This document shows positions 10,287-55,317 of a stretch of 64,000 bases of DNA, piece by piece. Source of the stretch: an uncultured Verrucomicrobia subdivision 3 bacterium (lineage in GTDB: Bacteria; Verrucomicrobiota; Verrucomicrobiia; Limisphaerales; UBA11358); NCBI GenBank assembly GCA_903865745.1, contig CAIPKV010000032.1, forward strand, positions 62,001 to 126,000, read 5' to 3'. Each line of letters starts with the position of its first letter. The stretch's first letter is position 1. The position numbers and the translations under genes are program-made. The notes under the pieces were generated by a model. It saw only the letters and a program-made list of their open reading frames with translations. It searched no databases and was not told where the DNA came from.

Positions 10287-10379
10287 AAGAATTTGCGATT
10301 GGCGATTTTCGATTTACGAATCGATGCCAAAGCCAAGTCCGCCGCGGCAATCTTAGACCGCAACTCCGAAATCAGCTTC

Positions 10380-44486: not shown

Positions 44487-44530
44487 GCGCCAATTGTGCG
44501 GAAGCGAAAGACGGACTCAAGCTGTTTCCT

Positions 44531-44563
44531 CATTTACGATTTATGATTTACGATTTACGATTT
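44531..44563. repeat. Tandem ATTTACGATTTATGATTTACGATTTACGATTTG repeat running into the annotated ubiX start
   Basis: Four degenerate ~9-bp units directly visible. Confidence 0.9.
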
Positions 44564-44569
44564 GTTTGC

Positions 44570-45127
44570 TTGAAAATTCTTGTCGCCATCACTGGGGCTA
44601 GCGGCGCGCTGTATGCGCAGCGTTTACTCGACAACTTGGATCCGCGCCAGCACGAAATCCATGTTGTACTGAGTAATTACGCTCAGCAGGTCGTCGCCGA
44701 GGAACTGACCGACGGCTTAAAATTGCCCGAGGGCGTTAAACCGCACGGTTTAAAAAGCATGAACGCCCCGTTCGCCAGCGGCTCGAACCCGCCGGACGTG
44801 ATGGTGGTCATCCCTTGCACGATGGGTACGATGGGGCGAATAGCGCATGGTTACAGCGAGGATGTGTTGCAGCGCGCCGCCGACGTTGTATTAAAAGAAA
44901 AGAAGAAGCTCATCCTCGTCCCGCGTGAAACGCCGCTGAACCTCATTCATGTAAAAAACATGGAGCTACTGCTGCTCGCTGGTGCGACGCTAATCCCGGC
45001 CAATCCGAGTTTTTATTCCGGTGCCAAAACGATAATTGAATTGGTGGATACCGTCGTCGCGCGCGTGCTCGACCATATCGGCCTACCAAACCAGATTGCG
45101 CCGCGTTGGGCTGAAGAGCGGGAGTAG
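44570..45127 (+). CDS. ubiX: Flavin prenyltransferase UbiX (likely TTG start at 44570; ORF track starts at 44543)
   Basis: KILVAITGASGALYAQRLLD; PCTMGTMGRIAHGYSEDVLQRAADVVLKEKKKLILVPRETPLN. Confidence 0.95.
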   Translation: MKILVAITGASGALYAQRLLDNLDPRQHEIHVVLSNYAQQVVAEELTDGLKLPEGVKPHGLKSMNAPFASGSNPPDVMVVIPCTMGTMGRIAHGYSEDVLQRAADVVLKEKKKLILVPRETPLNLIHVKNMELLLLAGATLIPANPSFYSGAKTIIELVDTVVARVLDHIGLPNQIAPRWAEERE

Positions 45128-45130
45128 GAC

Positions 45131-45163
45131 GAGGATTGAGGATGGAAAATTGAGGATGGCAGA
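45131..45163 (+). repeat. Left arm of inverted repeat flanking the four-helix-bundle gene
   Basis: GAGGATTGAGGATGGAAAATTGAGGATGGCAGA; 30/33 complementary to 45580-45612. Confidence 0.9.
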
Positions 45164-45187
45164 TGTAGAACGCGCCAATTAATAATC

Positions 45188-45571
45188 ATGGCAATTATCA
45201 GAAGCTTTCGAGATTTACGGGCGTATCAGCAAGCTCGCAGCGAGGCCAGCAACGTGTTTGAGGCGACCAAGACTTTCCCCAAAGAGGAAAAGTTTTCCAT
45301 GACCGATCAAATTCGGCGCTCGTCGCGCGCCGTCAAATCCATGATTGCGGAGGCTTGGGGACATCGACGTTATCCTGCCGCCTTTGTTAGCAAGCTGACA
45401 GACGCACTCGGTGAAGCCAATGAAACCCAATCGTGGCTGGACGATGCGTTGGACTGCGGTTACCTCAGTATTGCCCAGCACCGGGACTTCGATGCGGCGT
45501 GGCAATCCATCGGCGGCATGATTGCCAATATGATTCTCAAAGCTGACGACTTTTGCCAGAGTGCACGTTAA
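45188..45571 (+). CDS. Four-helix-bundle protein (TIGR02436 / 23S rRNA IVS S23-like)
   Basis: IIRSFRDLRAYQQARSEASNVFEATKTFPKEEKFSMTDQIRRSSRAVKSMIAEAWGHRRYPAAFVSKLTDALGEANETQSWLDDALDCGYL. Confidence 0.92.
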   Translation: MAIIRSFRDLRAYQQARSEASNVFEATKTFPKEEKFSMTDQIRRSSRAVKSMIAEAWGHRRYPAAFVSKLTDALGEANETQSWLDDALDCGYLSIAQHRDFDAAWQSIGGMIANMILKADDFCQSAR

Positions 45572-45574
45572 AAA

Positions 45575-46498
45575 ATGTCTCTGCCATCCTCAATCTTCCA
45601 TTCTCTATCCTCGCTTCAGAAATGGGGCAGCTTCGTACGCTTCTCGCACACGGTCTTCGCACTACCTTTCGCGTTGGCGGCGATGCTTGTGGCCGCGCGT
45701 GACCAGCGCGGCTGGCCCGGCTGGCGCACTTTCGGGCTGATTCTTGCCGCAATGGTCTGCGCCCGGACGTGTGCGATGGCGTTCAACCGCATCGTGGACC
45801 GTAAGTTCGACGCGCTGAACCCGCGCACAAAGAACCGGCACCTCCCGAGCGGTCAAATTTCTCTAGCCAGTGCAATCTTACTGTGCGCCCTGTCGGCGGT
45901 GGGATTAGTGGCCGCCAGTTACTTTCTCAATCCGCTGTGTTTTTATCTCTCGCCGGTGGCGCTGGTGCTGGTCTGTTTTTATTCGCTGACGAAACGCTTC
46001 ACGGACTACACGCACGTTTTTCTCGGCGTCGCGCTTGCGCTCGCCCCTATCGGGGCCTGGCTCGCGGTGAAGGGCGGCAATCTTTCGCCGCTGGAAATAA
46101 TACAGATGACCTTGCTCGCCTTTGCCGTGATTTTGTGGCTCGTTGGCTTCGACATCATTTACGCGCTGCAAGATTACGAGTTCGACAAGTCGCACGGCTT
46201 GCGCTCGCTCGTCGTCGCGTGGGGACCGCAGAACGCGCTGACCGCCGCGTTTCTCGCGCATATGATTATGTGCGGCGCGTTGTTCGGCTTCGGTCTGTTA
46301 TGCCGGTTCCACGTCGCGTATCTCATTGGCTGGCTGATTATCGTCATTTGCTTGGTGCTGGAGCATTGGATTGCGCGGCGACGCAGTTTGAACTGGATTA
46401 ACATCGCCTTCTTCCGCTTAAACGCGTTGGTGGGTGTAATCTTTCTGGTAGTGGTGGCGGCGGAAGTAATCTTTCAAGGCGGCTTCAAATTACGGTGA
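45575..46498 (+). CDS. ubiA: 4-hydroxybenzoate polyprenyltransferase UbiA-like (N-terminus overlaps a repeat arm)
   Basis: FVRFSHTVFALPFAL; ARTCAMAFNRIVDRKFDALNPRTKNRHLPSG; DIIYALQDYEFDKSHGLRSL. Confidence 0.93.
   Translation: MSLPSSIFHSLSSLQKWGSFVRFSHTVFALPFALAAMLVAARDQRGWPGWRTFGLILAAMVCARTCAMAFNRIVDRKFDALNPRTKNRHLPSGQISLASAILLCALSAVGLVAASYFLNPLCFYLSPVALVLVCFYSLTKRFTDYTHVFLGVALALAPIGAWLAVKGGNLSPLEIIQMTLLAFAVILWLVGFDIIYALQDYEFDKSHGLRSLVVAWGPQNALTAAFLAHMIMCGALFGFGLLCRFHVAYLIGWLIIVICLVLEHWIARRRSLNWINIAFFRLNALVGVIFLVVVAAEVIFQGGFKLR
45580..45612 (-). repeat. Right arm of inverted repeat flanking the four-helix-bundle gene
   Basis: TCTGCCATCCTCAATCTTCCATTCTCTATCCTC. Confidence 0.9.
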
Positions 46499-52671: not shown

Positions 52672-52703
52672 GAAATGATGAAGGCTGAATTATGAATGAT
52701 GAA
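52672..52703 (+). repeat. Left arm of inverted repeat flanking the second four-helix-bundle gene
   Basis: GAAATGATGAAGGCTGAATTATGAATGATGAA; two mismatches to the reverse complement of 53057-53088. Confidence 0.9.
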
Positions 52704-53048
52704 TTGGATTTGCCCGTGCGGACAAAACAATTTGCCCGACGCATCATCCGGCTTTATTGCGCCTTGCCCAAGTTAAACACGGTGGCGCAAGTTTTAGGAA
52801 AACAAGTGCTGCGCTCCGGCACTTCCATCGGTGCCAATTATCGTGAAGCTCATCGCGCGCGTTCTAAGGCTGAGTTTATCTCTAAAATTGGCGATGTCTT
52901 GAAAGAAGCGGACGAAACCCTTTACTGGCTGGAGCTATTGCTCGAAGAAAGCATTATCCCTTTAAAAAGACTTCAGCCATTGGCTGCAGAGGCGAACGAG
53001 TTGGTTGCCATTTTCACCACAATTTCCAAACGCTCGAAAGGACTATGA
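52692..53048 (+). CDS. Four-helix-bundle protein (TIGR02436 / S23-like)
   Basis: RTKQFARRIIRLYCALPKLNTVAQVLGKQVLRSGTSIGANYREAHRARSKAEFISKIGDVLKEADETLYWLELL. Confidence 0.93.
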   Translation: MNDELDLPVRTKQFARRIIRLYCALPKLNTVAQVLGKQVLRSGTSIGANYREAHRARSKAEFISKIGDVLKEADETLYWLELLLEESIIPLKRLQPLAAEANELVAIFTTISKRSKGL

Positions 53049-53056
53049 TGAATCAC

Positions 53057-53088
53057 TTCATCATTCATAATTCATACTTCATCATTTC
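53057..53088 (-). repeat. Right arm of inverted repeat flanking the second four-helix-bundle gene
   Basis: TTCATCATTCATAATTCATACTTCATCATTTC. Confidence 0.9.
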
Positions 53089-54303: not shown

Positions 54304-55317
54304 GTGGTCGCCGAAATCCTTTCTACCCACACGCCGGAGCTTTTCCAGAAAGCCGTGCGGCGCGCTGCTGAATTGTTGCGCGCCGGCGAGGTCGTAGCGC
54401 TGCCGACGGAAACGGTTTACGGCCTCGCTGCGAATGCGCTGGATGAAAAGGCTGTCGCGAAAATCTTTCAGATTAAGGGGCGCCCGTCGCATAATCCCAT
54501 CATTGTCCATGTCGCAGGCAATGCCATGGCGCATGACTGCGTAAAAGAATTCACACTGCTTGCGGAGAAGTTTTCAAATGCATTCTGGCCCGGTCCGCTC
54601 ACTTTGGTGTTGCCGCGCGCAAAAAAGATTCCCGACTCGGTGACGGCAGGTGGCGAAACGATTGGCGTGCGCTGGCCGAGCCATCCGTTTATGCAGGCGG
54701 TGATTCGTGAGTGCGGTTTTCCACTAGCCGCGCCGAGCGCAAATCTCTCCAATCAGATATCGCCAACGAATGTGGAGCACGTCCGCGCGCAACTTGGGAG
54801 CAAGATCTCTTTGATTGTGGACGGGGGTCAGTCACAGGTGGGGATTGAATCTACGGTCTTGGATCTGACAGTGTCGCCGCCAAGAATTCTACGGCCGGGG
54901 ATGATTCACGCGGAATCGCTCACGGCTGTCGCCGGCGAAGTCCAAAGCCCAAAGTCTATAGTTCAAGGTGAGACAGCCCGAAAAAGCCCCGGCCTGTTGA
55001 AGAAACATTACTCGCCGAAGGCAAAGCTGGTCGTGCTGTATTGGCGGGATGAGGCGGATTTGAGGCTTCAAGTTTCAAGTCTCAAGTTTCAAATTCCGGA
55101 TTGCCATGTCATTGCGCATACGCAAATTCCGGCGGACGAAAGTTTTGCGGATGTGAGCGTGATGCCGCATGACGCCGAGGCGTTTGCGCGGGCGTTATAT
55201 GCGGAGTTGCACCGTTGCGACCAAGCGGGCGCGAGGTTGATTATCGTGGAGGCGCCGCCAGCAGATTTGCCGGAGTGGTTCGGAATCATGGACCGGCTGC
55301 AGCGCGCGGCGGCCTGA
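54304..55317 (+). CDS. L-threonylcarbamoyladenylate synthase (Sua5/YrdC type with C-terminal Sua5 domain)
   Basis: LLRAGEVVALPTETVYGLAANAL; KGRPSHNPIIVHV; ESTVLDL..PRILRPG; SPGLLKKHYSPKAKL. Confidence 0.95.
   Translation: MVAEILSTHTPELFQKAVRRAAELLRAGEVVALPTETVYGLAANALDEKAVAKIFQIKGRPSHNPIIVHVAGNAMAHDCVKEFTLLAEKFSNAFWPGPLTLVLPRAKKIPDSVTAGGETIGVRWPSHPFMQAVIRECGFPLAAPSANLSNQISPTNVEHVRAQLGSKISLIVDGGQSQVGIESTVLDLTVSPPRILRPGMIHAESLTAVAGEVQSPKSIVQGETARKSPGLLKKHYSPKAKLVVLYWRDEADLRLQVSSLKFQIPDCHVIAHTQIPADESFADVSVMPHDAEAFARALYAELHRCDQAGARLIIVEAPPADLPEWFGIMDRLQRAAA

Follow-up and report, generated by a model that had tools for sequence, protein, structure and literature searches.

Genes of the PF05635 (S23) family are common in environmental bacteria and, to our knowledge, S23 has no known function. 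The reports of bacterial heptamer repeats started with the cyanobacterial STRR sequences, which are also present in rnpB and in trnL introns. Heptanucleotide intergenic repeats have been described as GGGAATC in Xanthomonas, where 70-75 convergent heptamer pairs are found per genome, and as GGGGA(C/T)T in Nostoc (PMC4692102), and a TAACTGA heptamer is repeated in Beggiatoaceae (PMC4679880); in all three cases the repeats were termed unexplained. In Coxiella, an S23 ORF lies in the loop of an rRNA intervening sequence (IVS) of 428-444 nt, whose ends form a stem of 28 bp and which RNase III cleaves in vitro (PMC4990558). The homology of S23 with Avd was noted in PMC10053308. No link between S23 and heptamer repeats was found in the literature searched, most subscription-journal papers being outside its scope.

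The window analysed here, a whole stretch of 64,000 nt from an uncultured Verrucomicrobia subdivision 3 bacterium, carries two S23 genes between complementary arms, one of them located between ubiX and ubiA (Table 1). We propose that this element is probably an intra-operonic mobile cistron with heptamer arrays as terminal inverted repeats, which would move as DNA and whose S23 product would recognise the arrays.

The element at the ubiX-ubiA junction

A single long inverted repeat is found at this locus (45130-45163 with 45580-45613; 34 nt, 31/34 positions paired or 91%, spacing 416 nt). It includes the 30/33 pairing around the S23 ORF that a previous sequence-only reading had reported, and the right arm indeed encodes the first ubiA residues (SLPSSIFHSLSS), as this reading had claimed. 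The 5' arm begins 2 nt past the ubiX stop codon and the arms are built of about five copies of a GAGGATK unit, the heptamer phase of the 5' arm being taken straight from the letters. S23, the sole ORF between the arms, matches the PF05635 profile (23S_rRNA_IVP) with 94.6 bits for a cut-off of 33.8, as well as TIGR02436 and, weakly, bAvd / DivGenRetAVD. Terminal inverted repeats are present as in insertion sequences and DNA transposons, and transposase is absent from the element. The complementarity score of the locus, 28, is above the highest value of 540 dinucleotide shuffles (27, their 99th percentile being 18) and above the maximum local complementarity of 16 for 71 control ORFs of other genes. 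The 5' arm is 82-88% identical at the same site in two other species, compared with approximately 40% at 4-fold degenerate sites.

Table 1. Positions of the described features in the window
Feature	Position	Strand	Remarks
Solo heptamer array, GATTTAC family	44526..44568	+	immediately 5' of ubiX
ubiX, flavin prenyltransferase family (UbiX-type flavoprotein), upstream host gene	44543..45127	+	stop codon 45125-45127
5' arm	45130..45165	+	tandem heptamers GAGGATT GAGGATG GAAAATT GAGGATG GCAGATG at 45131-45165
S23 / four-helix-bundle ORF, 127 aa	45188..45571	+	PF05635, TIGR02436
ubiA-like polyprenyltransferase, downstream host gene	45575..46498	+	ATG 3 nt beyond the S23 stop codon
3' arm	45580..45613	+	inverted heptamer array, doubling as early ubiA codons
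Second S23 element, unit TGAATKA	52672..53088	+	ORF 52692-53048, between ABC-transporter ATPase and permease

The second element had been described as a copy of like plan with a different arm sequence, and this description is correct: its arms (52672-52706 and 53054-53088) are 91% complementary, read TGAATTA TGAATGA, and the S23 ATG sits within the 5' arm. A regularity had been overlooked, namely that both arm pairs of the window are tandem 7-nt repeats. The units of the remaining two S23 genes of this genome are GATTTAC/GATATAC and GATGCGG. The N-terminal ATG of ubiX falls within a further heptamer array, and the unit and strand of the array 5' of this gene match those of an S23 element on another contig (L004 on C67). 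The GATTTAC unit of this last element gave 114 pattern matches genome-wide and the reversed-pattern control gave 0; many matches are hairpins of 80-120 nt without ORF, having ends in common with the ORF-bearing element as MITEs do, and others are solo arms. Genome-wide array counts rest on this one pattern search and on sampled stretches, in which tandem repeats most often, and by a wide margin, have period 7 and the heptamer density of S23-rich genomes is 3.2 times that of genomes in which no S23 was detected (26 versus 7 arrays, p 0.0025). Two more solo heptamer arrays are seen in the window (10289-10322 and 55057-55102), the latter within the ORF 54304-55317 and hence translated.

Heptamer arms of S23 loci

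In total, 117 S23 ORFs were collected from the genome of the window and from relatives within its order, giving 108 non-redundant loci and 65 independent sites. A pan-phylum set, drawn from named genomes, had 82 S23 ORFs at 80 loci and spanned more than 12 phyla, among them Firmicutes, Cyanobacteria, Bacteroidota, Acidobacteria, Planctomycetes, Deltaproteobacteria, Nitrospirae, Chloroflexi and Patescibacteria. Loci were picked from the top profile matches downward and the sample favours intact S23 genes. The inverted-flank score of the 108 order loci has a mean of 19.7, against 10.4 for mispaired flanks (p 8e-46), 10.0 for shuffled flanks (p 5e-46) and 10.5 for other ORFs (p 2e-21), and the mean is 19.4 over the 65 independent sites. 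For the 82 pan-phylum ORFs the score is 20.7 versus 11.2 when mispaired (p 1.5e-30). A clear inverted pair is missing (score below 15) at 19% of the order loci. In both sets lags 7, 14 and 21 alone are elevated, and of 71 well-scoring arms 56 fit period 7 best and 12 fit period 8. The array length is near-constant, with a median of 31-32 nt and a peak at 30-33 nt, for 4-5 units. Three loci (L031, L032, L045) have an extra local hairpin beside the 5' arm, in the order array, inverted array, ORF, inverted array.

The sequence-only reading had held that the palindromic architecture, rather than a fixed terminal sequence, is the conserved property. Inverted ends, one S23 ORF, co-directional genes and the lack of a single fixed terminal sequence are all found, but this statement is too general, since what is conserved are inverted tandem heptamer arrays with a median of about 31 nt. 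Nor is the arm sequence free to vary: for S23 genes at different sites, the arm similarity has a mean of 10.3 when the proteins are at least 60% identical versus approximately 6 otherwise, the pairs being non-independent and the p-value only indicative, and it reaches 11.0 for pairs at least 60% identical between the order and pan-phylum sets, so that similar arms are found even across phyla. From these comparisons the arms behave like lineage-specific terminal inverted repeats travelling with the S23 ORF.

Another explanation is that the arms form an mRNA stem that closes the insertion and brings the ubiX stop to the ubiA start, with a possible cut by RNase III, the pairing being selected in the RNA. 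Its plan and size are those of the Coxiella IVS (PMC4990558), the elements are found in transcribed operons in the same direction, and the arms pair in the folded sense RNA (z -5.0), although a low fold energy is expected of any long inverted repeat. Under selection of RNA pairing, G.U mismatches should exceed A.C mismatches, yet both were about equally frequent, with 121 G.U versus 151 A.C in the order set and 102 versus 111 in the pan-phylum set. The lack of G.U excess points to a recognition at the DNA or protein level, or to a plain terminal-repeat ancestry, and RNA-stem selection was rejected as the main force. Moreover, at several same-site groups an arm of one species pairs with that of another no less well than the two arms of a single locus do, and selection for pairing in the transcript is unsupported. 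We therefore consider the mRNA stem an unlikely explanation.

Empty sites, orientation and mobility

The ubiX-ubiA junction was compared in 30 loci of the same genus. Four of them are insert-free, the two genes overlapping at ATGA with a ubiA product beginning MI-x-x-IQKWG, and at another four no more than about 20 nt are added. The 45.1-kb element is shared by the window and two relatives; 7 of the 30 loci have another S23 element, whose heptamer arms have the unit AACATCS, and 2 have a heptamer hairpin without ORF. This variety of inserts implies that the junction was struck repeatedly, and new ubiA start codons are supplied there by the arms. Since empty sites exist, the comparison with relatives shows that the 45.1-kb element arrived by insertion at the stop-start overlap of ubiX and ubiA. 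Further inserts seen at this junction are octamer-type hairpins (CACAGAGG / CACCAAGA) and an ORF with ankyrin repeats (L117, L121, L128, L134; L118, L125, L138).

Cyanobacterial plasmids provide further and cleaner empty sites. On plasmid C of Trichormus the element follows a TAA stop codon with GTAAT on both sides, by comparison with plasmids of Nostoc linckia and Nostoc 7120 whose flanks are 98-99% identical, and in Nostoc sp. ATCC 53789 a TTCTA direct repeat surrounds the S23 element; a clean 5-bp direct repeat is limited to these two insertions, the best resolved, and two other sites show short losses instead. One element, approximately 82% identical over exactly 419 nt including the arms, occupies different sites of different cyanobacterial plasmids. 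In Picosynechococcus PCC 7003 an S23 element separates the CRISPR-operon genes cmr2 and cmr3, the site being empty in PCC 7002. Side observations on such plasmids are S23 in CRISPR operons at cmr2-cmr3 and cas6-cas4 together with a Uma2-family ORF at the cmr2-cmr3 junction of Synechocystis PCC 7338 (L395 2001-2342; L406 1201-1554; L405 668-1222), and a decayed S23 with one arm, a solo-arm intermediate, at the plasmid site used in Trichormus (L402 590-800). The two S23 copies of Nostoc 7120 plasmids (L387, L388; near-identical, with an identical protein accession) were rejected as a guide to the element ends, because they share 891 nt including an upstream ISL3-type transposase sequence and so leave the ends undefined, and the Calothrix plasmid copies, with 3.5 kb in common, were rejected as independent insertions.

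Of 99 S23 genes in the order set, 94 are co-directional with both neighbours and 0 lie between two antisense genes; the assemblies of the window's genome and of most relatives are incomplete, and flanking genes were called by a simple codon-usage script. As neighbouring genes are co-directional in 73% of cases in sampled stretches, a random orientation predicts 36% (p 3e-35). The pan-phylum set gives 61 S23 genes in ++ orientation versus 1 in --. In contrast, the ORF-less arrays show no orientation excess (31/45; Fisher 5.5e-5, on small numbers), and the bias therefore accompanies the ORF. Its simplest explanation is that S23 depends on the host operon for expression.

The S23 dN/dS ratio at shared sites ranges from 0.06 to 0.25 with a median of 0.09, from which we conclude that the ORF is under purifying selection. 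Such a value, with synonymous sites saturated at shared positions, would also suit an S23 that has become a normal gene of the host, with operator-like arms that could serve, for example, in self-regulation of the operon, its mobility having been rare and ancient. Arms are conserved where 4-fold sites are not (82-84% identity for same-site arms across species versus 46% at S23 4-fold sites, in 14/15 sites), and the same site is occupied by S23 in up to 6 species; this high arm identity may partly be inflated by repeat homogenisation and score-based arm choice rather than reflect selection. Against this explanation stand the empty sites of close relatives, including the plasmid flanks, the presence of the S23 family at many unrelated junctions, a protein identity of up to 77% to a Firmicute, and the existence of ORF-less copies. 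As a full account it is thus doubtful, more so than the mRNA stem, but it can be compatible with a mobile cistron after its insertion. Finally, an excess of heptamers among the simple repeats of bacteria has long been known and replication slippage was proposed (PMC4692102), but arms that are microsatellites only incidentally associated with S23 are highly improbable given their near-fixed length, inverted pairing and single dominant period, the lineage-specific units travelling with S23 and the excess of arrays in S23-rich genomes.

Taken together, these comparisons of genomes show that the unit is mobile and oriented, lies within operons, ends in heptamer arrays and carries an ORF under selection. 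The mobile cistron could work as follows: (i) the element would move as DNA; (ii) S23, an Avd homologue and a pentamer in solved relatives, would recognise those heptamer arrays that belong to its lineage and would recruit or shield the element ends for use by a host enzyme; (iii) the element would have no promoter of its own and would be retained only where an operon transcribes it; and (iv) the ORF-less hairpins would be moved or generated in trans. With ends lying on stop and start codons, and an arm able to provide new ones, the host genes would remain intact. Each of the solved structures of S23 relatives, 2rld and 2gsc (XCC0516 of Xanthomonas campestris), contains five chains, and the description of 2gsc cited in PMC10053308 gives five four-helix bundles. 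The 4-5 heptamers per arm are at most suggestive of one contact per S23 subunit, and the near-neutral S23 core (pI approximately 6.8) counts against array binding. Neither a transposase-like domain within the element nor an enzyme that could mobilise it was found. Mobilisation by RAYT/Y1 was rejected, the palindromes by the two Y1 genes of the genome being non-heptameric, and no Y1 transposase was found in an S23-rich genome (G053, 10 S23) nor in G016 or G056. Phage carriage was rejected, as 50,697 phage records gave no match, and so was a location in rRNA, with no Rfam match for 20 pan-phylum S23 loci.

Wider reading and comparison with known systems

The design of the S23 element may be the source of many unexplained bacterial heptamer repeats. 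A broader proposal, which we put forward tentatively and which could well be wrong, is that S23 represents a phylum-spanning class of mobile elements whose tandem-heptamer ends are read by the protein, perhaps with one unit per pentamer subunit. If true, the unexplained dispersed heptamers of bacteria would be S23-element ends and non-autonomous relics, rRNA IVSs would be the special case of S23 elements landed in rRNA, and a parallel class with 8-10-nt units would exist around GxxExxY (PDDEXK_3) genes. The link would provide a candidate reader protein for the repeat and a candidate spreading element for the heptamers, would show how a small mobile gene can inhabit operons without breaking them, and would give rRNA IVSs a wider family. 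In the same genomes, GxxExxY genes (L297-L324, e.g., L299, L298, L318) are seen with inverted arms scoring 19.1 versus 11.7 when mispaired, made of looser repeats of 8-10 nt in place of 7.

As with MITEs and REPINs, dispersed ORF-less hairpins are found beside a rarer ORF-bearing copy with identical ends; in contrast to them, there is no transposase parent, and the RAYT-like Y1 genes of the genome carry other palindromes. The weak profile match recalls the Avd protein of diversity-generating retroelements, whereas the window's own genome is without reverse transcriptase (no RVT_1 match). The published heptamer repeats are likewise tandem 7-nt units, intergenic and often near stop codons, and the S23 arms consist of the tandem 7-nt intergenic units that characterise STRR-type repeats; no protein partner is given for the former (PMC4692102, PMC4679880), whereas the arrays here are the ends of S23 elements. 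The rRNA IVSs of Coxiella and Leptospira have a similar length of approximately 430-480 nt, a complementary stem of 28-34 bp, one S23 ORF and a suspected mobility (PMC4990558). Unlike them, the element described here is found outside rRNA, at stop-start junctions of mRNA operons, and its S23 ORF is, to judge from substitution rates, under strong purifying selection; its arms, as lineage-specific heptamer arrays, may be a further difference. On the best reading, the element is related in plan to the rRNA intervening sequences.
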